Source of the DNA: Beijerinckiaceae bacterium
GTDB lineage: Bacteria > Pseudomonadota > Alphaproteobacteria > Rhizobiales > Beijerinckiaceae
Direction: 5' to 3'
DNA length: 36,119 bases
Assembly: GCA_947498445.1 (NCBI GenBank)
Contig: CANMLK010000012.1
Location: 1-36,119, forward strand
The translations under genes and the position numbers were made by a program. The first letter of the stretch is position 1, and the number at the start of each line of letters is the position of its first letter. Below, in pieces: positions 1,634 to 34,470 of the stretch. Under the pieces are notes generated by a model. It made no database searches. It had not been told where the DNA came from and saw nothing but the letters and a program-made list of their open reading frames with translations.

Positions 1634-2125
1634 ATGCCACAATCACTTTTGATGATTACGCAACGAATCCATTTAGATCGCCGATGCCTTCGGCTGCCGA
1701 AAGTTATGCTATTTGCCATTAGCGCGTTCATCGCCCTCATAGAGACATCAAATAGCAAAGCTCATGCAGCTGTTTTTATAAGCAGGGAGTGCAGCGAAGA
1801 AAAGCAAGTACCTGACTGCGAAAAAAATGGCAGCATTAAATACATCTATATTTACGATTCAATTGAAATGGAAACTGCGGATGATGTCGCAAGAGTAAAT
1901 GGAGCGATACCTATCGGAGAACCATTTCCCATCGTATATTTAAACTCTGAGGGCGGATCTGGACAAGCGGCCTATCAAATTGGAAGAATACTCCGGCAGC
2001 GATCTGCGTCTGTCGAAAGTAAGGACATGTTTTTTCCAAACCGGATGCCATCATGCAACTCTGCATGCGCGTTGATTGCGATGGGATCGAAGCCCTTCGT
2101 CAGTCCATCGCACGGATGGCGATGA
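1634..2125 (+). pseudogene. secreted ClpP-like protein, 3'-truncated
   Basis: The open frame gives 163 residues. After a hydrophobic leader (MLFAISAFIALIETS near residues 25-39, ending AHA) comes a domain like the periplasmic ClpP-fold proteins (COG3904 type). FPIVYLNSEGGSGQAAYQIGR, around residues 98-118, is the strand-and-glycine segment that shapes the oxyanion hole. CNSACALIAMGS, around 141-152, carries the serine in the usual nucleophile context. Such proteins normally continue for about another 80-100 residues. Here the frame ends nine residues after KPF, inside the antisense 3' end of the adjacent TctC gene. I infer truncation at a junction near 2095-2110. The start is weakly supported, with only a poor purine stretch before the ATG. 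AT content is higher than in the region to the right. Confidence 0.6.
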
Positions 2126-3143
2126 GCTTGTCAACGACAGAGGCGGGCGTCGCATACAGTCTGTCGATGACCTCCTTCACGGCCGCTCCATCAATGGGGT
2201 CCACTTCCAACTTCATCTTCCGTGCTTCTTCCAGAAAGGTGGTATCGACCATGGTTCTGTCGAATGCAGCGCGCAGGACTTCCATCCTTTCGCTCGAAAC
2301 GCCAGGGGGCGCCCCTAGTGGTCTCGCCGCCTCCCAGTTTCCTGCTAATACGGTCAGCGCCTGCCTCCAGGACTCGTCGGTCGCGAGGTCGAGCATGAGG
2401 GGCACCTGCGGCAGTTCCGGCGACTTCTGCATCCCGAGTTGCACAAGGATATCTATACGCTTGTGATCCAGCCATTCGGGGCGCGCGGACTTGATGCTGG
2501 AAAGCGAGAAGCTACAGAAGCCGTGAAGTTCTCCTCGTTCCATCGCTATGCCGATCGCGCCGCTGTCCGGATAGCCCAGGACTGGCTTGAATTTCGTTCC
2601 AAGCACTGAGTTGATAATCTGCGGGAAGTAATAACTATCACTATAGCGACCAACTGCGCCGACAAGCGTTTCACGCGTTTTAACATCTTCCAGGCTTTTC
2701 AGTCCCGCCGTATGCCACGTGAAGCACAGTGGTGTGGAGCGGCTGACGCTGCCGAGCCAGTTGAACTGTTTGGGATCATATCGGGCAAGTTCGTTTTTGA
2801 ATAATGGCTCAAGGAAAACATTAACGAGCAAGCCAATTGTTGCTCCGTCCTTCGAGGCGGCGTTGTAGAGGTGGTTCGCCATCGTCAAACCGCCGGCGCC
2901 AGGCATGTTTTCTACGATGATATTGGGCTTGCCTGGAATGTTACGGCCTAGGTGGCGCGCAACGGCTCGCCCATAAACGTCAAAGCCCGTTCCTGGCCCA
3001 TAGCCAACTAAAAGCCGTACTACCTTTCCGGCGTAGAAGGCGCCTGCCGTTCCCTGAGCGTCAGCGGATGACTGGGCATGCGCGCCGGCGCAGACGCAGG
3101 TGATCGCCGCGAAGCTCGCGACGGTGGCAAGAACCTTACCCAT
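2100..3143 (-). CDS. TctC-type periplasmic solute-binding protein
   Basis: This 347-residue extracytoplasmic receptor belongs to the tripartite tricarboxylate transporter (Bug/TctC) family, whose ligands are mostly carboxylates. A Sec signal peptide runs to AHAQ (residues 21-24). Then come FYAGKVVRLLVGY (36-48), the domain-1 motif with GFDVYGRAVARH (53-64), and NMPGAGG (79-85). LCFTWHT (139-145) and GELHGFC (204-210) carry the cysteines C140 and C210 of the pair discussed in the findings. The ATG at 3143 is preceded by GGGAGG at good spacing; a longer open frame upstream has no such site. It is divergent from the isomerase-like gene, with a 110-base shared promoter region. No TctA or TctB gene is nearby, so the transport partner is unknown. 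Confidence 0.9.
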   Translation of the reverse strand: MGKVLATVASFAAITCVCAGAHAQSSADAQGTAGAFYAGKVVRLLVGYGPGTGFDVYGRAVARHLGRNIPGKPNIIVENMPGAGGLTMANHLYNAASKDGATIGLLVNVFLEPLFKNELARYDPKQFNWLGSVSRSTPLCFTWHTAGLKSLEDVKTRETLVGAVGRYSDSYYFPQIINSVLGTKFKPVLGYPDSGAIGIAMERGELHGFCSFSLSSIKSARPEWLDHKRIDILVQLGMQKSPELPQVPLMLDLATDESWRQALTVLAGNWEAARPLGAPPGVSSERMEVLRAAFDRTMVDTTFLEEARKMKLEVDPIDGAAVKEVIDRLYATPASVVDKLIAIRAMD

Positions 3144-3253
3144 GGCGTTCCTCCCGAGAACAAATCTAATTATGATTGCATGCGGCGGGTCGGATGGAAA
3201 GTCCTTTCCCCCGGGAAGTTTTTTGATTAGCTTTTGCCAGCGGAGGACCGCAT

Positions 3254-4033
3254 ATGCGAACCAACGACCCTTTCTCAAAGACGAACGACGATTTATCGCT
3301 GGAACGCTCGACAGGGTATGCCCGCGCCAGGGTAGGCCTCATTATCCCGTCGAGCAATCGACTTACTGAGCCGCAATTTCGTGCCTATATGCCTGCCGAC
3401 ATCGCCGTTCACGTCACACGATTGCAGATGACGGGGCGCCACAGTAAACCAGTCAAAGTCCTGGCGCAGGACGTGGCGGGCGCCGCCAGCGCGCTAGCTG
3501 ATGCAAGATGCGACGTCATCGTGTTTCACTGCACTGGCAACGCGATGGAAAATGGCCCCGAGGGCGAGCGCTTGCTGCTTGAGGCGATCCGTTCGCGGTC
3601 GGACGCCGTCGCGATTTCAACTGCGCAAGCTATCATCCAGGCGCTGCGGGCCAGCGCGGTCCAACGGCTCGTGCTGGTATCGCCCTATCACCAGTCCATA
3701 AACGATCACGAAAAGGACTATCTTGCCGCGTTCGGCATAGAGACGATACATGACGTGGCCCTCGACGCTCCAGTAAGCGACGGCTTTATCGCAGTGCCGC
3801 CACACCGGTGGCGAGAGATCGTGCATGATAATGCGCGCGCGGACGCCGACGGTTACTTCCTCAGCTGCACGAACACGACGCAGATCGATGTAGTCCCAAT
3901 TTTGGAGGAAGAGTTGCGCAAGCCTGTGGTCTCTTCGAATCAAGCGACCATCTGGGCCTGTCTTCACGCGCTAAGCGGTAAGTTAGGAGGCATGAGACGC
4001 GTCGAGGCGCTGGGCAGCCTTGCTGGCCGCTGA
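3254..4033 (+). CDS. maleate isomerase / arylmalonate decarboxylase-like protein
   Basis: This 259-residue cytosolic protein belongs to the Asp/Glu racemase superfamily, in the branch of maleate cis-trans isomerases and arylmalonate decarboxylases. The N-terminal GLIIPSSNRLTEPQF (residues 28-42) is typical of that branch. Both catalytic-site cysteines are visible, C93 in FHCTGNA and C205 in SCTNT. Two cysteines favour an isomerase or racemase over the single-cysteine decarboxylases. GGAGG precedes the ATG. It heads a plus-strand cluster with a flavin monooxygenase (46 bases downstream) and two TctC-type genes. In N-heterocycle catabolism such isomerases convert maleate to fumarate; a similar late step here is an inference. 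The exact substrate is not certain. Confidence 0.8.
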   Translation: MRTNDPFSKTNDDLSLERSTGYARARVGLIIPSSNRLTEPQFRAYMPADIAVHVTRLQMTGRHSKPVKVLAQDVAGAASALADARCDVIVFHCTGNAMENGPEGERLLLEAIRSRSDAVAISTAQAIIQALRASAVQRLVLVSPYHQSINDHEKDYLAAFGIETIHDVALDAPVSDGFIAVPPHRWREIVHDNARADADGYFLSCTNTTQIDVVPILEEELRKPVVSSNQATIWACLHALSGKLGGMRRVEALGSLAGR

Positions 4034-4079: not shown

Positions 4080-5219
4080 ATGAAGATCGAGGTTACACGA
4101 GCCGCCCGTATCTCGATGCGCAATGATAATGCTCTTAAAATCGGGCTTTTCGGCGCTAACTGCTCATCGGGCCGAGCAGTTACGCTGCTCGATGAGCGGT
4201 GGTCGGGTGAATGGAAAGATTGCCTTGCCCTCGCGCGAACAGCCGACGAGGTAGGGATCGATTTCATGCTGCCGATTGGCAGGTGGAAGGGCTATGGCGG
4301 TGATACGGATTATCAGGGCGCCACATTGGAAACGGTCACTTGGGCTAGCGGCCTGCTTGCGTCCACGAAACGGATAACGGTGTTTGGCACGGTGCACGCG
4401 CCACTTTTTAATCCACTGATCGCGGCAAAAGAATTCGTGACGGCCGATCAAATCGGTGAGGGGCGCTTCGGGCTCAATATCGTTTGCGGCTGGAACGAGG
4501 GTGAATTCGATATGTTCGGCGTCGCGCAGCGCGACCATGATCGCCGCTACGATTATGCGCACGAGTGGATCGATGTGGTGAACCGCGCGTGGAGCACTGA
4601 AAGCAATTGGGATTACAAGGGCGAGTTCTTCAAACTCCGTGGCGTTCGGATGAATCCAAAGCCCTTTGGTGGCTCATATCCCATCACGATGAACGCCGGC
4701 GCTTCCCCGAACGGGCGCGCTTTCGCGCTAAAGAACTGTGACGCCTTCTTCACTTCGGCGACGAGAATGGATTCAGAGAAGACGGCGGAACGGGTGCGGG
4801 ATATCAAGAGTGAGGCGAAAAGTTATGGACGTGAAATCGGCGTTTACACCGTGGGCGTCGTCACTTGCCGACCGACGCAGAAGGAAGCGGAGGAATATCA
4901 TCACTACGCCACAGTGGAGCGGGCTGACTGGAACGCCGTGCGAGATATTCTGGCCCTCAAGAACATTTCCCCTGAGACTGTCGGTCAGGAAACCTATGAG
5001 GCGCAGCGTAGGGCCTATGCGAGCGGGATGGGCGGCTTGCCGATCGTAGGCGACCCAGATAATGTCGCCGATGTGCTTGCGGGGCTGTCGCACGCCGGGC
5101 TGAGCGGCATTGGCATATCTTTTGTAAATTACGGGCGTGAACTTCCATTCTTTGCAGATGAGGTCCTGCCGCGCCTGCAAAAGAAGGGTGTCCGGGCCGC
5201 TAGAAACGGGAGGAGTTGA
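4080..5219 (+). CDS. LLM-class flavin-dependent monooxygenase (RutA/SfnG-like)
   Basis: This 379-residue FMN-dependent oxygenase of the luciferase-like superfamily is expected to be a TIM barrel using reduced FMN supplied by a partner reductase. KIGLFGANCSSG (residues 20-31), the GRWKGYGGDTDY segment (about 72-83), GRFGLNIVCGWNEGEFDMFG (about 132-151) and RRYDYAHEW match the group of pyrimidine oxygenase RutA and dimethylsulfone monooxygenase SfnG. Which substrate it uses cannot be told. AAGGGA lies five bases before the ATG; an internal ATG near 4116 lacks such a site. Its stop codon TGA overlaps the ATG of the following Bug gene (TGATG), so the two are translationally coupled. A paralogue lies at the right end of the window. 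Confidence 0.88.
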   Translation: MKIEVTRAARISMRNDNALKIGLFGANCSSGRAVTLLDERWSGEWKDCLALARTADEVGIDFMLPIGRWKGYGGDTDYQGATLETVTWASGLLASTKRITVFGTVHAPLFNPLIAAKEFVTADQIGEGRFGLNIVCGWNEGEFDMFGVAQRDHDRRYDYAHEWIDVVNRAWSTESNWDYKGEFFKLRGVRMNPKPFGGSYPITMNAGASPNGRAFALKNCDAFFTSATRMDSEKTAERVRDIKSEAKSYGREIGVYTVGVVTCRPTQKEAEEYHHYATVERADWNAVRDILALKNISPETVGQETYEAQRRAYASGMGGLPIVGDPDNVADVLAGLSHAGLSGIGISFVNYGRELPFFADEVLPRLQKKGVRAARNGRS

Positions 5220-6190
5220 TGCGGCTTGTATTGAGTGCTTTGGCAATTTGCGCCCCGTTCGCGTTGCACGACGCGATTGGCCAGACTTCGGGCCAGGAGA
5301 CATATCCCAACCGCCCTGTGCGGCTCGTTGTTCCGTTTCCGGCTGGCGGGCCGACAGATGTCCTTGCGAGGGTGCTCGGGCAGAACATGAGCGAGAAATG
5401 GGGACAGAGCGTCGTTATTGAAAACCGTCCGGGTGCTGGTTCCGCAGTCGCTGCAACGGCGGTCGCGCGAAGCAAGCCCGACGGATACACCTTGCTCATG
5501 GCGATGGACACGACGCTCGTCATGAACCCTATTGCGATGAAATCGATCAACTACAAGGTTGACGACTTCGCGCCCATCTCACTCGCGGCGTCAAATACGT
5601 CTATCCTTGTGGTGCCCGCCAACGGGCCGAAGACCATCGAGGAGCTGATTGCCAAGGGGCGGGCCGATCCCGGAAAGCTAAACTACGGCGCCGGCATTAT
5701 CACCACCCGCCTTGGCGCGTTCCTCTTTTCCAAGCTCGCGGGACTTCAGGCCGTTTCCGTCCCTTACAACGGCAGCGCCGAAGTGGTGCGCGCGCTCCTC
5801 GACGGCAGCATCGATTATGCGGTCGATGGAATCGCTCCACACCTGCCTCATATCCGTGACGGAAAGCTCCGCGCCCTCGCCAAGCTCGACTCCAAGCCAA
5901 TAGAGTCGTTGCCTGATCTCAAGTCGCTGGATCAGATTGCAAAGATGCCTGCACTCGCGGAAACCGCGACCTGGGTTGGAGTTGTCGCACCGGCGGGCGC
6001 GCCCCAGCATGTGATCGACACAGTGCGAGAGGCCGTCGTGCAGGCGACAAACAACGCGGATATCCGCCGCAAGTTGGCCCCGCTCGGGATTACAGTCACG
6101 AATAGCACCCCCGACGAGTTCGCCGCGCTTATCAAGTCTGAAGGTATACGCTGGGATCCGGTGGTCAGAGAGAGCGGCTTTGCAAACTGA
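5219..6190 (+). CDS. Bug-type solute-binding protein (canonical branch)
   Basis: This 323-residue periplasmic receptor is the one member in the window from the canonical Bug branch. After a signal peptide (LSALAICAPFALHDAIGQ) the mature protein begins with YPNRPVRLVVPFPAGGPTD, the classic Bug motif, and continues with VIENRPGAGS. The pocket region has SLAASNTSILVV and DGSIDYAVDG, without the cysteine pair of its divergent neighbours. The ATG overlaps the stop of the monooxygenase gene and GGGAGGAG lies just upstream, so it is co-translated with the oxygenase. This tight coupling suggests that the binding protein and the oxygenase serve the same compound or its breakdown product. Confidence 0.92.
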   Translation: MRLVLSALAICAPFALHDAIGQTSGQETYPNRPVRLVVPFPAGGPTDVLARVLGQNMSEKWGQSVVIENRPGAGSAVAATAVARSKPDGYTLLMAMDTTLVMNPIAMKSINYKVDDFAPISLAASNTSILVVPANGPKTIEELIAKGRADPGKLNYGAGIITTRLGAFLFSKLAGLQAVSVPYNGSAEVVRALLDGSIDYAVDGIAPHLPHIRDGKLRALAKLDSKPIESLPDLKSLDQIAKMPALAETATWVGVVAPAGAPQHVIDTVREAVVQATNNADIRRKLAPLGITVTNSTPDEFAALIKSEGIRWDPVVRESGFAN

Positions 6191-6271: not shown

Positions 6272-7312
6272 ATGCGCTCGACACACTTGGTTCTGTCCGG
6301 ATTTCTGTGCGCCGGGGGGATTAGCTATTGCAACACCGCGGGCGCGGTCGAGAACTTTTACAAGGGTGCGACCGTTTCTATCAACGTTGGCTCTGATGCT
6401 GGTGGAGGCTTTGATCTGGTAGCGCGCGTGGTTGCGCGTCACCTAGGGCAGCACATACCGGGAAAGCCCGCCATTATCGTTCGGAACATGCCGGGAGCGG
6501 GCGGTCTCGTAAACGCCAATTATCTGTACAATTCGGCGCCACGGGACGGCACCGCGCTGGCCGCCCCGTTCAACACCGTTTTTCTGTTGCCGTTATTGGG
6601 CGATCCCGCAGCCAAATTCGATCCTCGCGAGTTCACCTGGATTGGCAGCACGGACAAGCAGCAGGGCATTTGCCTCACCTGGCATTCAACTCCATTCAAG
6701 ACGTTTGACGACCTCAAGGCACGCGAAGTCGTCGCCGGTACGACCGCGCCAAACGCCACGCCGGCGACCTATCCATTTCTGCTGAATTCGGTTCTTGGGA
6801 CGAAATTCAAGATCGTGGGCGGGTATTCGTCAGGAGGCCTTCGGCTCGCACTGGAACAAGGTGAGGTGGACAGCATTTGCGGAATGGCGATCCAGACGCA
6901 CATGGCTGTCAGTCCGCAATGGTTCGAAAAGAAGCTGGTGAATGTGCTGGTTCAATTTGGCCTTGAGAAGCATAAGGATCTCCCGGACGTCCCCTTGGCT
7001 ATCGATCTGTTGAAAGGCGAGGATCGGGAGGTGCTGGACCTTATTTTGATCCCGCATGAATTCGGTAGGCCATTCGTGGCCCCGCCGCGCATTCCTGCTG
7101 ATCGGCGCGACGCGCTGCGTGCGGCGTTTGATGCGGTTCTCAAGGACGCCGCTTTTCTTGCCGATTCAGGGAAAGCTAAACAGTCGCTTGATCCGCTCAG
7201 CGGACCGCAGATCGAAGCGCTTATCCAGCGCGCCTACAAGGCGTCTCCGTCATCGGTTCAGCGGGCCGCGCGCATCCTGCGGGGGCCGGAATCCATTGAT
7301 CAAAAGCGTTAA
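6272..7312 (+). CDS. TctC-type periplasmic solute-binding protein
   Basis: This is a 346-residue receptor of the divergent TctC branch that dominates the window. A signal peptide is followed by NFYKGATVSINVG (residues 28-40), GGGFDLVARVVARH (44-57), IPGKPAIIVRNMPGAGG (62-78) and YNSAPRDG. The cysteines C134 (ICLTWH) and C203 (VDSICG) form the conserved pair. Of the possible starts I prefer the ATG at 6272, because GGGAGG at 6260-6265 sits at proper distance from it but directly abuts the other ATG at 6266. The gene follows the Bug gene by 81 bases and closes this plus-strand cluster. Confidence 0.88.
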   Translation: MRSTHLVLSGFLCAGGISYCNTAGAVENFYKGATVSINVGSDAGGGFDLVARVVARHLGQHIPGKPAIIVRNMPGAGGLVNANYLYNSAPRDGTALAAPFNTVFLLPLLGDPAAKFDPREFTWIGSTDKQQGICLTWHSTPFKTFDDLKAREVVAGTTAPNATPATYPFLLNSVLGTKFKIVGGYSSGGLRLALEQGEVDSICGMAIQTHMAVSPQWFEKKLVNVLVQFGLEKHKDLPDVPLAIDLLKGEDREVLDLILIPHEFGRPFVAPPRIPADRRDALRAAFDAVLKDAAFLADSGKAKQSLDPLSGPQIEALIQRAYKASPSSVQRAARILRGPESIDQKR

Positions 7313-7464: not shown

Positions 7465-9852
7465 TCACATCGGTGGGTCGCTGGCACAAAGGCCGTTATT
7501 GACGAGCTTGCTTATCTGTTCGTCATCCAGGCGCGCATAGGATTTAAGGATCGAGGCGGTATGCTGGCCGAGGCGCGGAGAAGCTGCCGCAGGCTGACAT
7601 CGCTTCCCTCCGAACAAAAGCGGCAGGCCGGCATGGTCATGCACTCCGGCTTCAGCATGTGAAATACTTGTAAACCAGTTTTTGGCCCGCAGGTGCGGGT
7701 CTTCGAATAGCTCTCGACCGTTCAGCACAGGAGCTGCAGGGATATGGACCCGCTGGAGCGCCATGCTGAGTTCAAATTTGTCAAATGTGCGGGTCTTCTC
7801 GGACAAGATCGCATAAAGGAGATCCGAATTGGCCAAGCGAGATTTAACGCTGGCAAATCGGAGATCTCGCTCCAGGTCAGTCTCGTCCAGCGCCTTGCAG
7901 AGAGCCACCCACTGAACCTCGTCGAAGACCGCGATGGCGATCCATTCGTCGTCTCCCTTCGTAGGAAACGCATCGTGCGGCGCCGTGTACGATACCGCGT
8001 TTCCACAGCGCGACGCGTTAGACGGAGGGCCAAGGAGGATCTCGCCGATCCACGTCATGGCGGCCTCACGTTGAGCGATCTCGGTGAATGTGCCCCGCCC
8101 GGACGCAAGCCGTCCATAAAGCGACGTAAGGGCCGCCGCCGCGCCGTGCAACGCGCCCATGGGATCCATGTAAGAACTTCCGGATCCAAGTGGTCCAGTG
8201 TCCGTGTATCCGATGAGATCGGCGATGCCGGCCATCGCCTCCATCGTCGGCCCGAGGCCAATCCGGTTTTCATCAGGCCCTCTTCCCACCACGGACATTT
8301 CGATGATGCAAATGCGCGGATCGGTTCGAGAGAGCGTGTCGTAGTCGAGACCCATTCGCTTGAGCGCGCCGGGCCTGAGATTGGCGACGACGGCGTCGAC
8401 CTTGGGAACGATGCGCCGCAACACGCCGCGCCCTTCTTCGGATTTGAGGTCGAGCACCACGTCAAACTTACCGAGATTCTGTGCATTGAAGCGTACACAG
8501 CGATTGTATGGACGCGCGCCAGGTTCACTATCGGGGTATTGTTCAAAGCGCGCGGGCGAAATCGGCCCGCGCCAAGAATCAAGCCATTGGGGTCCCTCAA
8601 TCTTGATGACGTTTGCGCCCAACAGCGCCAGAATGCGGGTCGACATCGGGCCCGCCCATGCGGTCGTTAATTCCAGAACAGAGATGTCGCGAAGCGGACG
8701 GTGAACGGGTGTTCGCTTCGGCTCTGCCCCAGGTGTCCTGCTGGCGTTAACTGGCCACGGGTCGCCTTCACCAAGACTCGGGCAAGGCCGGTTCCGAATG
8801 GCGGGCGCTGAAGGAACGCTGAAGAGCGCACCAAGCGCCGGGCGAATACCGGAGCGGGTTTGCACGCGTTGCCAGAAACCACGCTCGCTGAGATGGTGAT
8901 CAATGCGAAGACTGCCGTAGTTTTCGACCTTTGCGATCACCAACCCGGCAGACGCGCAGGCGTTCACGAGGTCTTCGACAAGCCAGTTTCGCGACCTCTG
9001 ATTGAGCTCTTCGCTTGCGTCCTTCCAATTTCGGGTGATGCTTCCCCAATTGCTGAAACGCGAGTCTTCAGCCAGTTCGGCGGCGCCCAAGACATTACAG
9101 AGCGCACGCCATTGGCCGCTCACGCTCCGCACGAACAATATAGCGTAGCCTTCCTTGCATTCGAGCGTACACACGGCGCGCGATGAATCACCGCCGCGCT
9201 CCATGAGTTGATGGCTGTATGCCCAGCGCAGCGAAAAATTTTCTTCCATCGCCGCTGCCGCTTCGTGAAGCGTTACTTCGCAGACTCCATAATGTTCACC
9301 ATGCGCCTTTCGGCCGTACAGAGCCGCCAGAATCGAAATATAGAGCCAGAGACCGGCGGCATAAGATGCGCGTTCGCCAATTCCATACAAAGGCCTTCGG
9401 CCAGGCAGCCCGCCAACATACATGGAGCCGGACAATGCTTGATGGATTAGCTCGGATCCTGTCCAGCCCGCGTAAGGTCCGGTATCTCCGAAGTCTGTCA
9501 CTAGCCCAATGATGCTCTGCGCGCATTCCTTCTCCAGGCGCTCCGCCATGGCCGAATCAGCGACGATAACAACGTCAGCATCGCGGCAGAACGCCACAAG
9601 TCTCGTCCACTCGGCAGGGTCCGTCTTGTCCAGAACAATTGAGTTTTTACCCGAATTTAAATGCCAGAACAGGATCGACTCTGCTCCGCTGTCGTCGAAG
9701 AATGGGGCGCGCATGCGCAGCGGCGAACCTGAAGGTGCCTCCACCAGACCGACCCGGGCTCCATAATCGGCCATGATCCGCGCAGCGAATTGCCCGGCGA
9801 TCGTGTCGGACAGGTCGAGTACGAGAAGGTTGGACAGGAGCGGCGTCGCCAT
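7465..9852 (-). CDS. tandem CaiB/BaiF-type (family III) CoA-transferase
   Basis: This 795-residue protein consists of two family III CoA-transferase halves, about 1-370 and 385-795. Such enzymes move CoA between acyl-CoA and a free carboxylate through an aspartyl-CoA anhydride. The second half has the start typical of the fold (ISVLELTTAWAGPMSTRILALLG, about 390-412) and the catalytic-type Asp563 in SYMDPMG. In the first half the matching place reads GERASYAAG (159-167), with Ser at the likely Asp position, so that half is probably structural. Fused transferases with a degenerate N-half are known. The ATG at 9852 lies two bases after the stop of the upstream TctC gene; a TTG at 9858 would overlap it. 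The two are one minus-strand operon. Confidence 0.88.
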   Translation of the reverse strand: MATPLLSNLLVLDLSDTIAGQFAARIMADYGARVGLVEAPSGSPLRMRAPFFDDSGAESILFWHLNSGKNSIVLDKTDPAEWTRLVAFCRDADVVIVADSAMAERLEKECAQSIIGLVTDFGDTGPYAGWTGSELIHQALSGSMYVGGLPGRRPLYGIGERASYAAGLWLYISILAALYGRKAHGEHYGVCEVTLHEAAAAMEENFSLRWAYSHQLMERGGDSSRAVCTLECKEGYAILFVRSVSGQWRALCNVLGAAELAEDSRFSNWGSITRNWKDASEELNQRSRNWLVEDLVNACASAGLVIAKVENYGSLRIDHHLSERGFWQRVQTRSGIRPALGALFSVPSAPAIRNRPCPSLGEGDPWPVNASRTPGAEPKRTPVHRPLRDISVLELTTAWAGPMSTRILALLGANVIKIEGPQWLDSWRGPISPARFEQYPDSEPGARPYNRCVRFNAQNLGKFDVVLDLKSEEGRGVLRRIVPKVDAVVANLRPGALKRMGLDYDTLSRTDPRICIIEMSVVGRGPDENRIGLGPTMEAMAGIADLIGYTDTGPLGSGSSYMDPMGALHGAAAALTSLYGRLASGRGTFTEIAQREAAMTWIGEILLGPPSNASRCGNAVSYTAPHDAFPTKGDDEWIAIAVFDEVQWVALCKALDETDLERDLRFASVKSRLANSDLLYAILSEKTRTFDKFELSMALQRVHIPAAPVLNGRELFEDPHLRAKNWFTSISHAEAGVHDHAGLPLLFGGKRCQPAAASPRLGQHTASILKSYARLDDEQISKLVNNGLCASDPPM

Positions 9853-9854
9853 GC

Positions 9855-10943: not shown

Positions 10944-11620
10944 GTTCATCCTCCCTGACTTGTTGAGGAAGTGTAATCCTCGATTGGATGCTGCGTCCAG
11001 TGGCGCCCGGGGGCACCCTAACTCGCAGAAAGATTCGACACCACCGTCAACCACGGGCTGGGCGCGCGAGCGCTTTTTCATCTCCTTCAAGACGATCGCG
11101 GAGCTTCGCGTGCACATTCCGAAGATAAAATGCCGTCTTCTCGTCAGAGTCTTTGTGGCGATCTACACTGAAATGAGCAGATTAAACTAGGGCTTTCAAT
11201 TTGTAGATACTAGACGAAGGTTTCTCTCACTGCGTTCAGCATGAATGCTGCAGAAATTTCGCGTCATGTAGATGTACCACGTCTGACTTCTGTGTATCCG
11301 CACTCCCACGACGTTTTTTTTGCGCTGACCCCGTGGATGCTCTTTTCCGATAGTTCCATAGCGCGGTGGAAAGCAAACAGGCATCTCGCCGAAGCCGCTT
11401 GCAAAGCCAACAACAAGCTGCATAATTAGCAACACATTATAACCAGAGCTTGCGATCCTCGAACCGCTCGCTTGTCGCAATTATATGACGGCATACAAAA
11501 TTCGAACAGCATGAGCTTTTCAATACTCCAAGGACAGTTGTCGACACGGCGAGAATTGCTACAAGCGGTCCATGATGCAACCGGGAATCCGGCGCCGCTA
11601 AATAATGACAGGGAGGATGA
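10944..11620. other. long divergent intergenic region
   Basis: This stretch of about 680 bases lies between two divergent TctC genes. A 62-codon frame at 11241-11429 has no good ribosome site and no family resemblance. The right half (about 11150-11560) is AT-richer and probably contains the promoter of the plus-strand TctC gene at 11621. I see no clear terminator, operator or RNA gene. Confidence 0.4.
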
Positions 11621-27091: not shown

Positions 27092-28020
27092 GGGCGCGAC
27101 GTGTTGCGCTCCGCCCAGGCTGCTTTCTTGAAGCGCTCGGAGAGATACTTGAGAAACAATTGGAGGATTTTTGGCTGTTTGCGAGCCTGTGGGTAGAACG
27201 CGCAAATAGTTTGTTGTTGCACGTCGTACCCGGTGAGTATCGGGATAAGGCGACGCGCCTGGATATCCTCGGTCACACAGAATTTCGGCAGCAATGCTAT
27301 TCCAGCCTCATCCATAACCATATACCGCATCGTAATTGCATTGCTCGGCGAAACGACGCCAGACACTTTCACTGATTCTGTCCCGTCCGGGCCGTGGAAT
27401 CGCCAAATACCCCGCCCATAGGGTCGCGATGTAATCAGGCACGAGTGGTGCGCCAGGTGTGCGGGCTTCTGAGGCACTCCCGCCTTGCGAAGATATGAAG
27501 GCGATGCACAAACGACCCACCTCATGACGCCTAGTTTTCGCACAAGTAGCGTCGATGTTTTGGGGCGGGTGAACCGAATGAGCACATCCGCGCTATATTT
27601 GCGTGGGTCAAAGGTGTCATGCCAATTGTCGCCAACAATCAGCGTCACCTGAATCTCCGGATACTCGATCATGAAGGACGTAACAGCTTTGCCCATCTCC
27701 ATGATGCCAAATGACATTGGCGCGACAACGGTAAGGCGACCCGCCGGCTCGTCGCTTGACTGCGTAATCGAGCGCTCTTCCTCTTGAATTTCGTCCATGA
27801 TGCGCTTGCAGAATTCAAGGTAGCGGTGGCCTGTCTCGGTAAGCGATAGCTGGCGTGTTGTCCGGTTGACGAACCGCACACCAAGGCGCGTTTCCAGACT
27901 CTTGAGACGGCGGGAAACAAGGCTTGGTGAAATGCCCAGTTCCATTGCCGCACGACTCACGCTGGCGGTCTGTGCGACACGAACAAACGCTTCCATTTCG
28001 ACAAGACGATTTGAGCTCAC
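27082..28020 (-). CDS. LysR-family transcriptional regulator
   Basis: This 312-residue DNA-binding regulator is the only transcription factor in the window. The winged helix-turn-helix is at about residues 12-68 (FVRVAQTASVSRAAMELG, ISPSLVSRRLKSLE, RLGVRFVNRTTR). The effector-binding domain follows from about 95 (GRLTVVAPMSFG). I chose the GTG at 28020, preceded by AAGGA, because it gives the usual LysR length. The open frame extends upstream to 28365, but that part has no family resemblance. An internal ATG at 27996 would cut close to the HTH. It is divergent from the crotonase/ligase/TctC cluster, its most likely target, and ends by overlapping the TctC gene at 26039-27091 by 10 bases. Confidence 0.9.
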   Translation of the reverse strand: MSSNRLVEMEAFVRVAQTASVSRAAMELGISPSLVSRRLKSLETRLGVRFVNRTTRQLSLTETGHRYLEFCKRIMDEIQEEERSITQSSDEPAGRLTVVAPMSFGIMEMGKAVTSFMIEYPEIQVTLIVGDNWHDTFDPRKYSADVLIRFTRPKTSTLLVRKLGVMRWVVCASPSYLRKAGVPQKPAHLAHHSCLITSRPYGRGIWRFHGPDGTESVKVSGVVSPSNAITMRYMVMDEAGIALLPKFCVTEDIQARRLIPILTGYDVQQQTICAFYPQARKQPKILQLFLKYLSERFKKAAWAERNTSRPYS

Positions 28021-28617
28021 GAAATTGATTTCCTTTAGCCCGATGCCTGACCTGAGATGACGGGCAATGTTTTCAGCGACGTTACTCGACAAATCAAGAA
28101 CAGCCTTTAGGAGCAGATTATGCTCGAAACACCAGGCTCTGTCACGTCGCGGGGCTTTGCGAATAAGGCCACGGCTCCATAGCTCACCGGGATGACAAAG
28201 ATCAGCTACACTGGCCCGGGCGTGATCGCGCGGCAAGACAAGGGATTCAGCTATATTGCGGAAGACTTTTTGAGCGAGATCAGATCCTTCGGCGTCATCC
28301 GTTTGTCCGCTCTCGTGCGCCTTCTGGAGGGTAACGGCATCGCTAAGCGCGCCGCCCGGACGCAAAAGGAGCAGCTCCTGGGGGGTGCTACTTCACCACA
28401 CTTCGGGAGTTGGATCAGACGCTCGCGGAGTACGCGACCCTACACAACACGTTGCTGCGGGAGCGGTGTGGATACAAAGCTACGGATCATATCAGGGCTG
28501 ATTAGATGGGCCTTGCATCCGAAGCCGCTACAGAGTTTAATTTAGCCGCCTTCAAGGCGAAACGGGCTGTCTAATGAGCATGACCCGGTACATTCAATAC
28601 TCTTGGGAGGATGCGGC
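28021..28617. other. divergent region between LysR and crotonase genes
   Basis: This stretch of about 600 bases has no intact gene. An antisense frame (28192-28545) and the upstream extension of the LysR frame both lack recognisable domains. A possible transposase relic lies at 28388-28504 (listed separately). The part next to 28618 should hold the promoter of the crotonase cluster and LysR binding sites, but I could not define the boxes. Confidence 0.4.
28388..28504 (+). mobile_element. possible integrase/transposase C-terminal relic
   Basis: The frame from 28388 reads YFTTLRELDQTLAEYATLHN, continues with LLRERCGYKATDHIRAD and stops at TAG. The pattern of LxxTLxxYxxLxN followed by a GYK-type turn resembles the C-terminal end of DDE transposases of the IS481/IS3 type. 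No upstream part remains: the frame is closed by a stop shortly before. The family call is tentative. Confidence 0.3.
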
Positions 28618-29439
28618 GTGGCCAATCCGGAAGATCAGATCGTCATAACCGAAGTTGATGAAGGCACCGGCGTGGCCAGAATCCTGATGAACAGGCCAAA
28701 AAAGAAGAATGCTCTCAGTCGGAAGTTGATGTTCACCATAGTCGACGAGATCAAGGCGATACGCGACAATGACAAAATCAACGTCATCGTTCTTGATAGC
28801 GCTGGCGATACGTTTTGTGCAGGACAAGATCTCCAGGACCTGCGGAACGACTGGAGCAGCAAGAATCGTGCGCGGTGGGGAGATTACACAGGATCCACGC
28901 TCAGCATCGCGTTGCTGCTGAGAGGCGCGCGGCAAATCACTATTGCATCCGTTCGTGGATATTGTCTTGGCGGCGGCATCGTACTTATGAACGCCTGCGA
29001 TATGGCGTTTGCGGCCAGCGACGCGCAGATCGGGATGCCGGAAATCATCCGTGGCAGCTATGGGCGCTCGGCAACCCCGACGCTTTACCATTCGGGAATT
29101 CCAACAAAGTTAGCTTTCTATATACAGGTCAGCGGTCGCAATCTTTCGGGGACGGAAGCTGCGCGGATAGGTCTTGTCACCGGCGCTATGCCTAAAGAGG
29201 ATCTGCAAGCCTACGTGGCGCAGCTCGCAGCAGAGGTGGCGTCCCGAAATCCCGTGGCGCTGGAGCATGCGAAGATCGCAGCGTACACCGAGATGGATCT
29301 TCCATTCGAGGCGGCGTTGAAGGTCGATGAGGCGCTCGCTCATCGAATGCGCGTTTACACCAACCCGCTGGGTGATGTTGAGGGTTATCTTGCTTCCCAA
29401 AAGGGCGGCGGTAACCTAGGTTACAAGGCGCCCAAGTAG
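28618..29439 (+). CDS. enoyl-CoA hydratase/isomerase (crotonase) family protein
   Basis: This 273-residue crotonase-fold protein acts on acyl-CoA thioesters. The oxyanion-hole segments are CAGQDL (residues 67-72) and RGYCLGGGIV (113-122). The catalytic Glu of the second site is kept as E142 in GMPEIIRG. The first Glu of true hydratases (the E in GGGCEL) is replaced (GGGIVL), so this is more likely an isomerase, hydrolase or lyase-type member than a classical hydratase. GGGAGG precedes the GTG at 28618 at good spacing; a TTG at 28603 lies within that site. It starts a cluster with an acyl-CoA ligase (58 bases downstream) and a TctC gene, divergent from the LysR gene. Confidence 0.88.
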   Translation: MANPEDQIVITEVDEGTGVARILMNRPKKKNALSRKLMFTIVDEIKAIRDNDKINVIVLDSAGDTFCAGQDLQDLRNDWSSKNRARWGDYTGSTLSIALLLRGARQITIASVRGYCLGGGIVLMNACDMAFAASDAQIGMPEIIRGSYGRSATPTLYHSGIPTKLAFYIQVSGRNLSGTEAARIGLVTGAMPKEDLQAYVAQLAAEVASRNPVALEHAKIAAYTEMDLPFEAALKVDEALAHRMRVYTNPLGDVEGYLASQKGGGNLGYKAPK

Positions 29440-29497: not shown

Positions 29498-31021
29498 ATG
29501 GATCGCGGGTACGCCACGGTAGGACGATCGTTAAGGATCAGCGCTGCGAATTATCCCGGCAAGACGGCTATCATGGAAGTTGGGCGAGGCCGGCTGACCT
29601 ATTTGGAGCTGAACGCCACGGTGAATCGTCTCGCGCATTACCTTATGTCGAAAGGCGTCGCTAAGGGTGACAACGTCGGGATCGTGATGCTCAACTCGAT
29701 AGAGCACATAGCCTTGCTCTATTCTCTGGCCAAGATTGGAGCCGTCTCAGTTGCGATAGATCCGCACTGGACGGCTCATGAAGTCGCCCGAGTCGTCAAG
29801 CATTTTGACTGCAATCTTCTGTGCGTCGATGTGCACCTGCTGGATAAACTTAATGATGTTGAGGCCTCAACAACTCCTAAGGGACGCATTCTTTTCGATG
29901 GCAAGGCGCCATTCCTCGACAGCTTGGGCGCAGACATACTAGCGCAAAGCGACGTCGAACCTGATGTGCGCGTCCTTGACCACGACGTGTTCACATTGGT
30001 TTTGACATCCGGAACAACCGGCATGCCAAAGGGCTGCATGCGGACGCACCGGAACGTCGAAATGGGTTGCCTTAAAGACGCGTTGGGAAAAAACCTCATC
30101 AACACCAGTCAGGAGTTGATCGTCGCGCCAATATACTACGGAACAGCTCGAGGGAGCGTGCTTGGCCAGATTTATGTCGGCGGCACGATCCATGTCATGG
30201 CTCGGTTCGAGGAAAACGAGGTGGTCCAGCATATCAAGGAGCACCAGATCACGGATATCTCCCTGGCTCCCACGATGATCCACCGCATCCTCAAACTGGA
30301 AGGGTTGCAGCGCGACGATTTCGCCTCGATCAGATCTCTGAGAAAGGTGGGCTCGCCTTTCACCAAGAAAATGGTCGAGGAAATTAGATCGCGCATCACA
30401 ACCAACATCTTTCAGGGGTTTGCATCCACCGAGTCTGGCGGCGTCACGATGCTGAAGCCGGAAGATCAGCTCAAGAAACCGGGATCATCCGGCCATCCGC
30501 GGTGGGGTGTCGAACTCCAGATCGTCGGTCCGGACGACAAGGCGTTACCACGCGGCGAGACGGGCGAAATCCGCGTCAGCGGCGCAAATGTCTGCGAGGG
30601 CTATTACAAGAACCGCGAAGAGCAGGACAAGGTCTTCCGGAATGGCTGGTACTATACCGGAGATCTCGGCTGGATCGATCATGACAATTACCTCTACGTG
30701 GTCGGTCGCGCCAAGAACATGATCAAGACCGGTAGCATCAACGTAGCTCCGGCGGAGATCGAGGGCGCGATTCTCGAGATGCCCGATGTGGATGATTGCG
30801 CCGTGTTCGGCCTACCCGATGAAGAATGGGGCGAGGCCATAAAAGCGACTATCGTTCTGAAGGGCGCCGCTTCTCTTTCTGCGGCGGACATCCAGGCGCA
30901 TTGCAGGAAGTCTCTCGCAGGGTACAAGATTCCCAAGAGCGTCGTTTTTGTAGACTCTATTACACGCAATCCCACGGGCAAGGTGTCGACGGAGTTTATC
31001 GCCTTGCATCGCAAGATCTAG
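29498..31021 (+). CDS. AMP-forming acyl-CoA synthetase
   Basis: This 507-residue adenylating enzyme activates a carboxylic acid to its CoA thioester with ATP. The phosphate-binding loop TSGTTGMPKG is at residues 170-179. FQGFASTESGG is the A5 motif, YYTGDLGWIDHDNYLYVVGR the A7-A8 segment, and NPTGK near the end carries the catalytic Lys495. The length is normal. An AAGAAG stretch precedes the ATG. It stands between the crotonase and a TctC gene; the acid bound by that TctC protein is a natural candidate substrate, but this is inference. The enzyme resembles long/medium-chain or aromatic acid ligases; the acid pocket cannot be assigned by eye. Confidence 0.93.
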   Translation: MDRGYATVGRSLRISAANYPGKTAIMEVGRGRLTYLELNATVNRLAHYLMSKGVAKGDNVGIVMLNSIEHIALLYSLAKIGAVSVAIDPHWTAHEVARVVKHFDCNLLCVDVHLLDKLNDVEASTTPKGRILFDGKAPFLDSLGADILAQSDVEPDVRVLDHDVFTLVLTSGTTGMPKGCMRTHRNVEMGCLKDALGKNLINTSQELIVAPIYYGTARGSVLGQIYVGGTIHVMARFEENEVVQHIKEHQITDISLAPTMIHRILKLEGLQRDDFASIRSLRKVGSPFTKKMVEEIRSRITTNIFQGFASTESGGVTMLKPEDQLKKPGSSGHPRWGVELQIVGPDDKALPRGETGEIRVSGANVCEGYYKNREEQDKVFRNGWYYTGDLGWIDHDNYLYVVGRAKNMIKTGSINVAPAEIEGAILEMPDVDDCAVFGLPDEEWGEAIKATIVLKGAASLSAADIQAHCRKSLAGYKIPKSVVFVDSITRNPTGKVSTEFIALHRKI

Positions 31022-31059: not shown

Positions 31060-32085
31060 ATGGTATGTCTTAGGACTGTTGTGATAGTAGCCGGCATTAG
31101 CGCTACGCTATCGGGTGGCGTGGCGGCGGATGAAGATCACAAGGCATTTTATTCCGACAAGACACTTCAGATGATCATCCGGTCCGAGGCAGGTTCCGGA
31201 TACGATCAATACGCGCGAACATTCGCGCGGCACGTCACGAAGTACATCCCGGGCGCTTCCGGCATGATCAATCGTAACATGCCCGGCGGCGGCGGCATCA
31301 CTTCCGTGAATCACGTGTATGCTGTCGCGCCGAATGATGGCACCGTGATTACGATTGTTAGCCAGGGCCTACCTGCGGCGCAGGCGCTTGGCGAAGCGAA
31401 AGGCCTGCGCGCCGACATGACAAAGATGCACTGGCTCGGCTCGCTCATCTCATCTAATCAGCTGACGATTACCCGCCGAGAGTCCGAGACGAACTCCTAC
31501 GAGATGGCGCGCAAGAGGGAAACGATTATCGGCACGGTCGGCATCGGTTCGATCTCCGCGCAGATCCCGGTCCTGCTCAATAAGTTCACAGGCACCAGGT
31601 TTCGGCTTGTGACCGGATACAAGGGCACGGAAGACCTGGCCATCGCCATGGAAAGAGGCGAGATTGACGGCTTCGCTGCGATGAACATGGCGACGCTGAA
31701 CTCCGTTTTCTCCCGTTACATCAAAGAGAACAGTATCAACATCATCGTGCAAATGGGGGCAAGCAAGGATCCGCGGTTGCCCGGCGTGCCGCTGATGCAC
31801 GAGATTGCGCAATCGGAAGAAGGTCGCAGGGTCATCGAGTTTTTCTCCCTCGGCGTCGCCGTCGGGAGGCCCCTGGCCGTGGGGCCGAACGTTCCTGCAG
31901 GACGTGTCGCCTTGCTGCGCGAGGCCTTTGCGCGCACCGTGACCGATCCCGAGTTCCTTGCGGAAGCCGCCAAACGCAATCTCGATATACAGCCAACCGG
32001 CTGGCAGGACCTGACGAACATCGTCGACAAGATTGTCAACGAATCGAAGGAAACGCTGGATCTCGCTCGCGCCGCATTCCAGTGA
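31060..32085 (+). CDS. TctC-type periplasmic solute-binding protein
   Basis: This is a 341-residue receptor. The signal peptide ends GGVAADED (residues 19-26). Mature motifs are AFYSDKTLQMIIRSEAGSGYD, QYARTFARHVTKYIPG, NRNMPGGGG and VAPNDG. The cysteine positions read SNQLTITRR and GEIDGFAAMNM, so both cysteines are absent. The ATG at 31060 follows GCGGAGG; the longer open frame upstream overlaps the ligase gene in another frame and is not used. It lies 38 bases past the ligase stop and is surely in the same transcript. A stem-loop follows its stop. Confidence 0.9.
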   Translation: MVCLRTVVIVAGISATLSGGVAADEDHKAFYSDKTLQMIIRSEAGSGYDQYARTFARHVTKYIPGASGMINRNMPGGGGITSVNHVYAVAPNDGTVITIVSQGLPAAQALGEAKGLRADMTKMHWLGSLISSNQLTITRRESETNSYEMARKRETIIGTVGIGSISAQIPVLLNKFTGTRFRLVTGYKGTEDLAIAMERGEIDGFAAMNMATLNSVFSRYIKENSINIIVQMGASKDPRLPGVPLMHEIAQSEEGRRVIEFFSLGVAVGRPLAVGPNVPAGRVALLREAFARTVTDPEFLAEAAKRNLDIQPTGWQDLTNIVDKIVNESKETLDLARAAFQ

Positions 32086-32098
32086 GAGACGTCAGCGA

Positions 32099-32178: not shown

Positions 32179-33333
32179 TCAGCGGTAGTCCCTGAACAGC
32201 TGGCGGGCCAGAACCATGCGCATGATTTCTGTGGTGCCTTCACCGATGAGATGGCTTCGCTGATCGCGCCACATGCGCTCGATCGGAAGATCGGTCATGA
32301 GGCCGGCCCCACCGTGCACCTGCAGGCATCGGTCCGCCGCGCGGTAAGCCATTTCGGTGCAGAACAGCTTCGTCATATACGCCTCGGTCCGGACATCCGC
32401 GCCGCGATCAGCGTTGGCGGCCGCGTGGTAAACCATCAGGCGGGCCATGTGAAGATCGACATAGGTGTCGACCAGCATCCACTGGATCGACTGACGCTCG
32501 GAGATAGGTTTGCCGAACGTGACGCGTTGCTGTGCGTAACTGGATGCAAGCTCGAGGCATCTTTCCGTTACTCCGATGGCGCGGGCGCCCTGGCGTATGC
32601 GGGCCCTTCCGAGCGATTGCTGGCCGATAGCGAACCCTTTCCCTTCCTCAAGGATGATGTGGTGAGCGGGAATTCGCACGTCGTCGAAGACGATCTTGTA
32701 AAGCACCTCACCCGTGACGACCTTGTATGTCGTCGGGCGGCTGACGCCTGGCGTGTCGAAGTCGACGATGAATGCCGAGATGCCGCCGTGCGATCCTTTC
32801 GCCCGGTCTGTTGCGGCGAGCACGATCATGAAGTCAGCGCCGCCGGCGTTGATGTAGTGCTTCACGCCATTGATGACGTAGTGATCACCATCCCTCACGG
32901 CAACGGTTCGCATGGCGCCGGGATCCGAACCGGCGTCGGGTTCCGTCTGTGCGAATGAGGCCTTCTTCTCTCCCTTCAGCACCGGAAACAGATAGCGCTC
33001 CTTCATCTCGGCGCTCAGATTGTACAAGGCGGGACGCACTTCCGGGCCCGTAATCCGGCCGCCGCGTGGTGGCAATGCGATCGTTCTCGCCATTTCCTCG
33101 ACGACGACCATTTCCGCAAGCATGCCCATGCCGAGGCCGCCGTACTCCACTGGCACGTCGATCTGCCAGAGGCCGAGCTCCTTGGTCTTGTCCTCGAAAC
33201 GCTTCCGGTATTCGGGCTTGAGCTTCATGTCGGGGGTAAGGGTGTTCATCTCGACCGGGATCAGTTCCGTATCGACGAACTTCCGCACCATCTGCTTGAG
33301 CATCTTGAGTTCGTCGCTGAGATCGTATTCCAT
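32179..33333 (-). CDS. acyl-CoA dehydrogenase
   Basis: This 384-residue FAD enzyme oxidises acyl-CoA to enoyl-CoA, passing electrons to electron-transfer flavoprotein. FAQTEPDAGSD (residues 127-137) is the flavin/substrate signature. RVTFGKPISERQSIQ (270-284) and LQVHGGAGL (337-345) are family motifs. The base glutamate is E365 in IGEGTTEIMR, at the position used by medium- and short-chain enzymes. AGGAG is seven bases before the ATG. It follows a TctC gene by 120 bases on the minus strand, so the two are probably cotranscribed. Together with the crotonase, ligase and CoA-transferase it gives a beta-oxidation-like set for a carboxylate that is not identified. Confidence 0.93.
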   Translation of the reverse strand: MEYDLSDELKMLKQMVRKFVDTELIPVEMNTLTPDMKLKPEYRKRFEDKTKELGLWQIDVPVEYGGLGMGMLAEMVVVEEMARTIALPPRGGRITGPEVRPALYNLSAEMKERYLFPVLKGEKKASFAQTEPDAGSDPGAMRTVAVRDGDHYVINGVKHYINAGGADFMIVLAATDRAKGSHGGISAFIVDFDTPGVSRPTTYKVVTGEVLYKIVFDDVRIPAHHIILEEGKGFAIGQQSLGRARIRQGARAIGVTERCLELASSYAQQRVTFGKPISERQSIQWMLVDTYVDLHMARLMVYHAAANADRGADVRTEAYMTKLFCTEMAYRAADRCLQVHGGAGLMTDLPIERMWRDQRSHLIGEGTTEIMRMVLARQLFRDYR

Positions 33334-33453
33334 TATGACTCCTCTTAGCGCCCGCTATCACGGGCCATGGGATGTTTGGCTGGGCGACTTCGTGTTGCAG
33401 TCTAGATCGTCTGCCCTTTTCGGATCAAGGTCACAAGTTGCACGCGGCACGCG

Positions 33454-34470
33454 CTATTTCGCCCGCCTGAGAGCTTCGACATGCTCTATGATCGCGCGGG
33501 GAGTCTTGTAGAGTTGTTCGACTATCTCTTGAACCCTGGCGCCTGAAATCGCGTCTATCTCCTGATTGGACTTCTTCGCTTCGTCGAGGAAAATTGGATC
33601 CAACATGGTATCGTCGAACGCTTTGCGCAATGCGGCGACGCGATCTTCGGGAACGTGCGGCGGCGCCAAAAATGGCCTGCCCATCTCCTGGGTCGCATAG
33701 AGATATTCCAGCGCGGCGAGGCTCTTCCCATCGGACACGAGATCGAGGATGTTTGGAACATCAGAAAGTTCGGGATGCTTCTGCATCGCCATCTGAACCA
33801 CGATCCTGATCTTCTTCTGCGCCAGCCAGTCCGGCCGGGAGGCTTTAAGGCCGCCCCAACTCATTCCGCATCGCGCTTCCGTCTCGCCGCGCTCCATTGC
33901 CAGGAACATCTCGGCGCCGCCGTATCCACTGACGATCTTGAACTTCGTGCCAAGGAAAGCGTTGAGGAGAACGGGCGCAAGCGCGCTGTTTCCAGCATCC
34001 CCCGCGGCCCCGACGATGACTTCCATTCGTCTGGCGTCCTCGATCGTTCTGGCCTTCGCCGTGTGCCAGAACATGCATACGTCTGTTACTTTCAGCACGG
34101 AGCCTAGCCAGTTGAGCGCCCGGCCGTCGAACTTCGCGGACCCGGGGTTCACCAGGGGCTCAACCGCAATCCGTTCGAACACAGCGCCGATCATCGATCC
34201 GTCGCGCGGCGCAGTATTGGCCAGAACGTTGGTAGCGATGAGCGAGGAAGCACCCGGCATGTTGCTGATGGCGACATTCGGCTGGCCGGGGATGTGCCTC
34301 CCGATATGGCGACCAACCAGTCGAGCGTAGATGTCGTAGGCGGCTCCGCTCGGATAGCCTACCACCAGCGTCACATTTCGCCCGGCGTAGAACGAACTTG
34401 GACTCTGTGCGCTCGCACTGATGGTCGGGAAAACAAATAGCAGGGAGCTCAGAACGAACCTGTACGGCAT
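33454..34470 (-). CDS. TctC-type periplasmic solute-binding protein
   Basis: This is a 338-residue receptor. The signal peptide ends TISASAQ (residues 16-22). It is followed by SFYAGRNVTLVVGYPSGAAYD, IYARLVGRHIGRHIPG, SNMPGASS and TAPRDG. The cysteine pair is present as C132 (VTDVCMFWHT) and C201 (GETEARCGMSW). GGGAGG sits five bases before the ATG. It lies upstream of the acyl-CoA dehydrogenase on the same strand and is divergent from the right-hand monooxygenase gene. It closely resembles the protein at 11621-12634 in motif wording, suggesting a shared duplication history. Confidence 0.92.
   Translation of the reverse strand: MPYRFVLSSLLFVFPTISASAQSPSSFYAGRNVTLVVGYPSGAAYDIYARLVGRHIGRHIPGQPNVAISNMPGASSLIATNVLANTAPRDGSMIGAVFERIAVEPLVNPGSAKFDGRALNWLGSVLKVTDVCMFWHTAKARTIEDARRMEVIVGAAGDAGNSALAPVLLNAFLGTKFKIVSGYGGAEMFLAMERGETEARCGMSWGGLKASRPDWLAQKKIRIVVQMAMQKHPELSDVPNILDLVSDGKSLAALEYLYATQEMGRPFLAPPHVPEDRVAALRKAFDDTMLDPIFLDEAKKSNQEIDAISGARVQEIVEQLYKTPRAIIEHVEALRRAK

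Follow-up and report, generated by a model that had tools for sequence, protein, structure and literature searches.

How can eleven solute-binding receptors work when the DNA that encodes them carries no permease for any of them? This question arises from contig CANMLK010000012.1 (C12) of an uncultured alphaproteobacterium of the Beijerinckiaceae, represented by a metagenome-assembled genome (MAG; GCA_947498445.1, 3.91 Mb in 332 contigs, 98% complete). The window analysed is the entire contig, 36,119 bases, and it contains eleven genes for receptors of the TctC/Bug family, numbered R1 to R11 along the contig (Table 1), among genes for catabolic enzymes. On the evidence of genome context, it is fairly probable that such regions are built of exchangeable receptor-plus-enzyme cassettes that feed a few shared permeases of matching class. 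More tentatively, and with a likelihood that we put somewhat short of even, this arrangement may amount to plug-in uptake, in which a few divergent permeases serve hundreds of interchangeable receptors in islands of lower G+C content, and a new diet is gained with one cassette and no new transporter.

An initial annotation, made from the sequence alone, had recognized eleven TctC/Bug receptors here, one of them broken, and this stands: a profile iterated from the ten intact receptors matched 12 frames, namely the ten whole genes and the two pieces of R8, and gave no match in the reversed window. An in-frame TAG (23178-23180) divides R8, whose sequence resembles receptors both before and after this stop. 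Pfam TctC (PF03401) matched four of the ten intact receptors above its curated cut-off (R2, R6, R7 and R11) and four below it, and found no match at E 0.01 for R9 and R10; Pfam alone was therefore dropped as a counting tool, since many receptors of the divergent class described below escape it. Profiles of two divergent receptor types retrieved from the Protein Data Bank (PDB) only TctC-family proteins among the matches listed (11/11 and 11/11), which indicates a profile relation of the window receptors to solved TctC proteins. In addition, the predicted models of R9 (pLDDT 90.5) and R4 (pLDDT 77.9) each had TctC-family chains as all of their 17 best PDB matches, and the TctC Venus-flytrap fold is thus predicted for these two of the 11 receptors. 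Relatives of R4 occur in five named records labelled Rhizobiales, Rhizobium sp. and Beijerinckiaceae MAGs. A hydrophobic stretch lies within the first 90 residues of all eleven receptors (2.0-2.5), yet the GMC enzyme of the window scores likewise (2.36), and the measure is too crude to tell exported proteins apart.

None of these receptor genes stands beside TctA and TctB, as in a TctCBA operon, and here too the initial annotation was right. Searches of the genome found no TctA or TctB match on the contig, and no window frame of at least 100 aa has four or more hydrophobic segments, against 10-12 in six TctA controls; a local TctAB was rejected on these grounds. Genome-wide, seven TctA matches, one of them truncated where its contig ends, and seven TctB matches face about 394 receptors (231-576), as extrapolated from a density of 101 per Mb (bootstrap 59-147) in a systematic sample of 39 contigs (406,680 bases). 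The first profile found 40 receptor frames in this sample and missed a partial canonical receptor (L025), which a canonical profile recovered, giving 41 (40 divergent, 1 canonical); neither profile matched the reversed sample. Canonical receptors are under-sampled in these contigs, for 29 of 146 Pfam TctC matches in the genome score at least 85 bits (150 of 292 candidates scored). A genus-wide search likewise gave 362 first-look candidates for this genome, of which 40 were scored and all matched; at 93 per Mb against a median of 42, this is the highest first-look density among 51 same-genus genomes (16 to 383 candidates each, mostly unscored).

The receptors are clumped across the sampled contigs (p 0.013), 20 of the 39 being receptor-free, and with receptor frames excluded the G+C content is lower on receptor-bearing contigs (58.6 vs 61.4%; rho -0.57, p 1.5e-4; rho -0.62 with the first profile). 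The genome mean predicts 3.6 receptors for a window of this size, and the mean of receptor-bearing contigs 7.6, against the eleven present; the window is a rich island, neither unique nor an outlier in its own genome. Outside it, 52 distinct genes of at least 120 aa adjoin sampled receptors, and 30 drawn at random comprised 22 genes with a match to enzyme families (one of them to a cupin domain only), one NMT1 protein, one RND pump, one transposase and five without a match. TctA or TctB was found in none of these 30, of which five matched nothing.

Receptors and permeases each fall into two classes. Two clades emerge from the receptor trees (support 100/100 and 100). The canonical one contains R2 and the receptors that neighbour canonical TctA; the divergent one comprises all nine remaining intact receptors of the window together with 39 of 40 frames from the contig sample (one omitted by length). 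Both pieces of R8 also score as divergent, so that by sequence ten of the eleven window receptors are assigned to the divergent class (nine by tree) and R2 to the canonical one. The TctA tree splits in the same two ways (support 100/99), with five canonical TctA in this genome (C37, C66, C171, C290 and C10) and two divergent (C121 and C266). C121 carries TctA, TctB and two divergent receptors, whereas C266 ends within a gene whose 334 TctA residues share 93% identity with a fused TctA-TctB protein (708 aa) from a same-genus genome, G007. On C41, a TctB match lying at the contig end represents the C-terminal 215 residues of a fused TctA-TctB, 80% identical to another G007 fusion; the pieces on C266 and C41 probably belong to two distinct fused genes, because their best matches differ. 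Two divergent receptors lie 1.3 kb from the C41 piece, an arrangement common to G007 (84% DNA identity over 4.6 kb).

The fused type appears widespread in the genus. Of 15 long frames scanned, 13 (among them all 8 from the genus) contain both TctA and TctB according to Pfam; the L171 and L173 frames matched TctA alone, with no TctB domain. With frame length as a proxy for fusion, long TctA frames of the divergent class (660 aa or more) occur in at least 46 of the 51 genus genomes, and the C121-type TctA in at least 22 of 51 among the matches listed. Across the order, 39 of 297 genomes (this one included) match the fused permease at E 1e-110. Fused-type TctA frames are of variable length among other families of the order (L164, 4797-8633; L161; L173). 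Permease-linked divergent receptors are dispersed through the orphan clade, and R5 clusters with one that adjoins a fused TctAB (L158; SH-aLRT 98).

Neighbouring receptors and permeases largely agree in class. Twenty of 60 listed loci outside this genome were taken, selected by permease match and not by receptors. Of the 43 TctA frames examined, 22 lie no more than 1.1 kb from a receptor, and the class agrees in 21 of these pairs (Fisher p 9e-5); other distance limits from 0.6 to 5 kb give p 7e-5 to 3e-4, and a limit of 0.3 kb, at which 9 pairs are left, gives p 0.22. Canonical TctA has a canonical neighbour in 6/6 cases, though divergent receptors outnumber canonical ones 40 to 1 in the contig sample. 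For fused-type frames from other families, the nearest receptor is divergent at 18 of 20 loci and absent at two, and it lies within 300 bases of the long frame at 12 of the 20; at L161 and L173 a second TctA has a canonical nearest receptor. The shared distant permease that the initial annotation had offered as one explanation is therefore partly supported, by permeases that exist off the contig and by this class match.

Do receptors also keep their enzymes? The initial annotation had described a modular pattern of one different enzyme, or enzyme set, with each receptor. Receptors do stand among catabolic genes, and some are closely joined to them: the start of R2 touches the stop of the luciferase-like monooxygenase gene LLM1 at position 5219, and R4 overlaps the start of the CoA-transferase gene by 4 bases. 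The pattern is nevertheless less neat than described, since R2/R3 and R7/R8 are adjacent receptor pairs, a UbiD gene is truncated and three window enzymes are luciferase-like monooxygenases. To assess conservation, the window DNA was compared with 50 other genus genomes (best five candidates scored per genome), yielding 60 loci around enzyme matches, 59 of them in relatives and one holding a paralog of LLM2 from the genome itself; two CoA-transferase loci were added. Receptors were called ortholog-grade if they reached 54% identity and outscored the next window receptor by 100 bits or more; these stand clear of a background of 26-50% identity.

By this measure, nine of the eleven receptors are found again with a partner in one or more genomes of the genus, in line with the expected pairing. 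R1 is kept with the racemase-type gene (G013, G003, G020), R2 with LLM1 (G079, G001; adjacent in G022), together with R3 in G079, and R4 with the CoA-transferase in G017 (L054), there too with a 4-base overlap. R5 is kept with the flavin reductase at one of three loci (L058, G073), the other two having the reductase (84%) beside a different receptor. R7 recurs with the hydrolase that precedes it (G014, G027, G017, G025) and R9 with the NMT1 gene (G025, G014, G027, G017, G075), with LLM2 near in G025, G027 and G017. R10 lies beside the acyl-CoA synthetase (ACS; L091) and beside the acyl-CoA dehydrogenase (L093) on two contigs of G027, and R11 near the enoyl-CoA hydratase (ECH) or ACS in G027, G073 and G033. 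No conserved partner of R6 was found among the loci of relatives, its ortholog being absent from all three MetE loci, and an R8 relative in G007 (62%) adjoins no window enzyme. In G007 the DNA match to R3 spans 6260-7313 alone. An ortholog-grade partner receptor was found at none of the MetE (0/3), GMC (0/4) and LLM2 (0/11) loci.

After exclusion of nine loci without a defined partner receptor (UbiD 6, the hydrolase at 15739 3), the matching receptor is present at 13 of 53 enzyme loci, against a label-shuffle mean of 1.8 and a maximum of 8 in 20,000 shuffles; without any identity limit, the figures are 15/53, 2.8 and 10. Receptor identity in pairs that recur in other species is 54-84%. From these comparisons, the receptor-enzyme pairs appear real but patchy, with partners exchanged. 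An earlier finding of no conservation for the CoA-transferase and ACS (strict protein searches: 2/61 and 1/41 genomes, this one included) was overturned by the DNA searches, which revealed conserved sets. Receptors related to R4 (47-53% identity) are found repeatedly in the genus without the CoA-transferase, either alone or two or three together (L149-L154, L008-L012); they were rejected as R4 orthologs, with no CoA-transferase match of at least 40% nearby (25% in L012).

We therefore favour an explanation in which the genome holds many islands rich in receptors, the window among them. An island would consist of small cassettes, each with genes for the use of a compound and one to three TctC-type receptors that catch it, nearly all without an adjacent permease gene. 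The ten divergent receptors would pass their ligands to a few divergent permeases, namely the fused TctA-TctB proteins of C266 and C41 and the TctA and TctB of C121, and canonical R2 would use a canonical TctAB set. Because the docking surface would be shared, a cassette that moves between genomes would work at once. From genome context we infer the docking, the transport and the ligands, and likewise shared docking as the basis of mobility.

Several observations weigh against this explanation. The fused loci of the genus itself do not follow the pattern of other families: no receptor lies closer than 1.1 kb to the TctA domain at any of the eight, and, measured from the frame, the nearest receptor is divergent at two (0.6 and 1.3 kb), canonical at four (1.2-3.8 kb) and absent at two. 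Three of the four canonical-nearest loci resemble one orthologous locus, and the idea that the fused permease stands alone in the genus was dropped, as divergent receptors lie 0.6-1.3 kb away at L126, L128 and C41. The C41 arrangement thus strengthens the case for shared permeases, and the canonical neighbours at the four genus loci weaken it. At 5 kb, the nearest neighbours of divergent TctA are 24 divergent and 5 canonical, and the single mismatch within 1.1 kb (L161) pairs a borderline TctA with a partial receptor. The p-values overstate independence, because several loci are mutual orthologs (L120, L131, L133). Both the 1.1 kb limit and the identity limits for ortholog-grade receptors were chosen after viewing the data. 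G009, despite 134 receptor candidates (40 scored, all matching), is the sole genus genome without a divergent-class TctA among the matches listed, possibly through assembly loss. The fused permease matched none of 13 same-family genomes of other genera and is therefore not a family-wide trait. Receptor candidates per genome track genome size (rho 0.76) and only weakly the number of TctA (rho 0.27, p 0.055). Enzyme loci of relatives mostly lack their window receptor, as the 13 of 53 above imply, and five R2 orthologs lie away from LLM1 (L136, L138-L141). Finally, the genome is a fragmented MAG in which the fused genes are incomplete.

Other explanations fare less well. It is unlikely that the receptors serve chiefly in sensing, with loaded receptors contacting periplasmic sensor or chemoreceptor domains and thereby inducing the neighbouring enzymes, as is described for BctC of Bordetella in the accessible parts of two accounts (PMC5994714, PMC5812351). 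The very many receptors per permease and the LysR gene within the R9 cluster would suit such a role, but no sensor kinase or chemoreceptor family was found among the scanned window proteins or the 30 sampled neighbours (5 unmatched), and class matching between receptors and permeases is unexpected from sensing alone. It is also quite improbable that most receptors are passengers without a present role, carried along by island turnover in a genome with rapid gain and loss of catabolic genes. The interrupted R8, the truncated UbiD, the patchiness of the pairs and the lower G+C content of receptor-bearing contigs all point that way; against it, ten of the eleven window receptors are open, and pairs recur at the receptor identities given above in other species. 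Very improbable, in turn, is that permeases of other families (ABC, TRAP or others) elsewhere serve the receptors and that the divergent TctA match reflects shared ancestry alone, although, in the part of the Rhodoplanes account available, ABC systems are associated with 41 TctC genes and TRAP systems with 8 (PMC5994714). One sampled neighbour here is an RND pump, and no ABC or TRAP count was made in this genome, but ABC and TRAP membrane families are absent from the 30 sampled neighbours, and the class agreement in 21 of 22 TctA-neighbour pairs speaks against it. Most of the neighbour enzymes, by family, use cytoplasmic cofactors (CoA, FMN, FAD), so the remaining initial suggestion, substrate delivery to exported enzymes, is unsupported; by eye, the hydrolase at 15739 alone begins like an exported protein, and no receptor adjoins it.

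Table 1. Annotated genes of the window, with the evidence for each assignment.
Feature	Coordinates	Strand	Evidence and remarks
Receptor R1, divergent clade	2100..3143	-	Profile, trees; points away from racemase/AMDase-type gene
Asp/Glu racemase / arylmalonate decarboxylase (AMDase) / EutA-like enzyme	3254..4033	+	Pfam; NCBIfam below cut-off
Luciferase-like monooxygenase LLM1	4080..5219	+	Pfam
Receptor R2, sole canonical-clade TctC of the window	5219..6190	+	Pfam 191.6 bits, trees
Receptor R3, divergent clade	6272..7312	+	Profile
Class III CoA-transferase, two matched stretches	7465..9858	-	Pfam
Receptor R4, divergent clade, own subclade	9855..11117	-	Profile, PDB profile search, model
Receptor R5, divergent clade	11621..12634	+	Profile
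Flavin reductase-like protein	12656..13315	+	Pfam
Receptor R6, divergent clade	13474..14529	+	Profile
Cobalamin-independent methionine synthase catalytic-domain (MetE-type) protein	14570..15589	-	Pfam
UbiD-family decarboxylase, truncated	17202..18365	-	Similarity ends at residue 351
GMC oxidoreductase	18783..20534	+	Pfam
Alpha/beta hydrolase	20556..21392	+	Pfam
Receptor R7, divergent clade	21461..22504	+	Profile
Receptor R8, interrupted by in-frame stop 23178-23180	22575..23618	+	Profile
Luciferase-like monooxygenase LLM2	23743..24771	-	Pfam
NMT1/SsuA-family protein	24940..25980	+	Pfam; NCBIfam below cut-off
Receptor R9, divergent clade	26039..27091	+	Profile, PDB profile search, model
LysR regulator	27082..28365	-	Pfam
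Enoyl-CoA hydratase family (ECH)	28603..29439	+	Pfam
Acyl-CoA synthetase family (ACS)	29498..31021	+	Pfam
Receptor R10, divergent clade	31060..32085	+	Profile
Acyl-CoA dehydrogenase	32179..33333	-	Pfam
Receptor R11, divergent clade	33454..34470	-	Profile
Luciferase-like monooxygenase LLM3	34927..36048	+	Pfam

Some features of the window bear on its history. The truncated UbiD gene, whose product is 75-79% identical to its closest three relatives up to the point where similarity ceases (relatives' frames 506-538 aa in L065-L068 and L070), is perhaps a scar of rearrangement at its 3' end. A frame at 1634-2125, ClpP-like by eye and without a Pfam match, ends just inside the 3' end of R1 and looks as if cut by a junction. 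At 91%, bases 1-157 of the contig match sequence in the end region of a second contig in the assembly (L031), and the contig start seems to be an assembly break at a repeat. The NMT1/SsuA-family protein, conserved beside R9, has no evident signal peptide by eye and may be an enzyme and not a receptor.

Much of what is found here has precedents: orphan TctC expansions, receptors in catabolic clusters and a TctAB fusion in one species are known already, and discussion of orphan TctC receptors goes back to the early 2000s (as cited in PMC5994714). The closest parallel is Rhodoplanes sp. Z2-YC6860, with 434 TctC-type receptors in 8.2 Mb and nine complete operons of the tripartite tricarboxylate transporter (TTT) family (Rosa 2018, PMC5994714). 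Both genomes have hundreds of TctC-type receptors, few permease sets and tandem arrays; the Rhodoplanes density is lower as published, but the counting methods differ, so the two are not strictly comparable. In contrast to the present genome, the low-G+C islands of Rhodoplanes are receptor-poor (13.5 vs 57.3 per Mb), and neither enzyme pairing nor permease classes are treated in the accessible part of that account (PMC5994714). The initial remark that orphan receptors are usually scattered agrees with Rhodoplanes, although orphans beside catabolic genes had already been published. For instance, AMDase clusters combine complete TTT sets with alphaproteobacterial AMDases and an orphan TctC with those of betaproteobacteria, as far as the excerpted source goes (PMC4996985). 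The placement of R1 beside an AMDase-type gene is similar, except that an orphan receptor here accompanies the enzyme in an alphaproteobacterium, and that the enzyme is a distant AMDase relative (70.9 bits against an NCBIfam cut-off of 225).

Which permease orphan TctC receptors use is still an open question in the literature consulted, and the match of clade and class offers concrete candidates, the fused TctAB and the C121-type TctAB, which would cover a large share of the orphans and allow a test with a single permease and a few receptors. Moreover, the recurring pairs supply ligand hypotheses for uncharacterized receptors and enzymes. The evidence for the partner, a receptor clade tied to a fused TctAB, looks new: no such link was found in the open-access literature (most subscription papers being outside its scope), nor any open-access paper linking Beijerinckiaceae with TTT solute-binding receptors. 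The available account of terephthalate uptake in Comamonas indicates that a receptor and its permease can cooperate although their genes lie apart: TphC is encoded in the catabolic tph operon, and the permease genes tpiBA are at another place (PMC8556258). The likeness is an orphan receptor in a catabolic operon with its permease genes elsewhere; TphC is, however, a single receptor, whereas here a genome-wide set from a different receptor clade is involved. As for the permease, a TctAB fusion, called rare, is reported from Paraburkholderia caribensis in the part of a review available to us (PMC5812351). That fusion likewise unites TctA and TctB in one protein and is there not tied to a receptor clade, whereas long TctA frames of the kind described here occur in nearly the whole genus and, elsewhere in the order, with divergent receptors.

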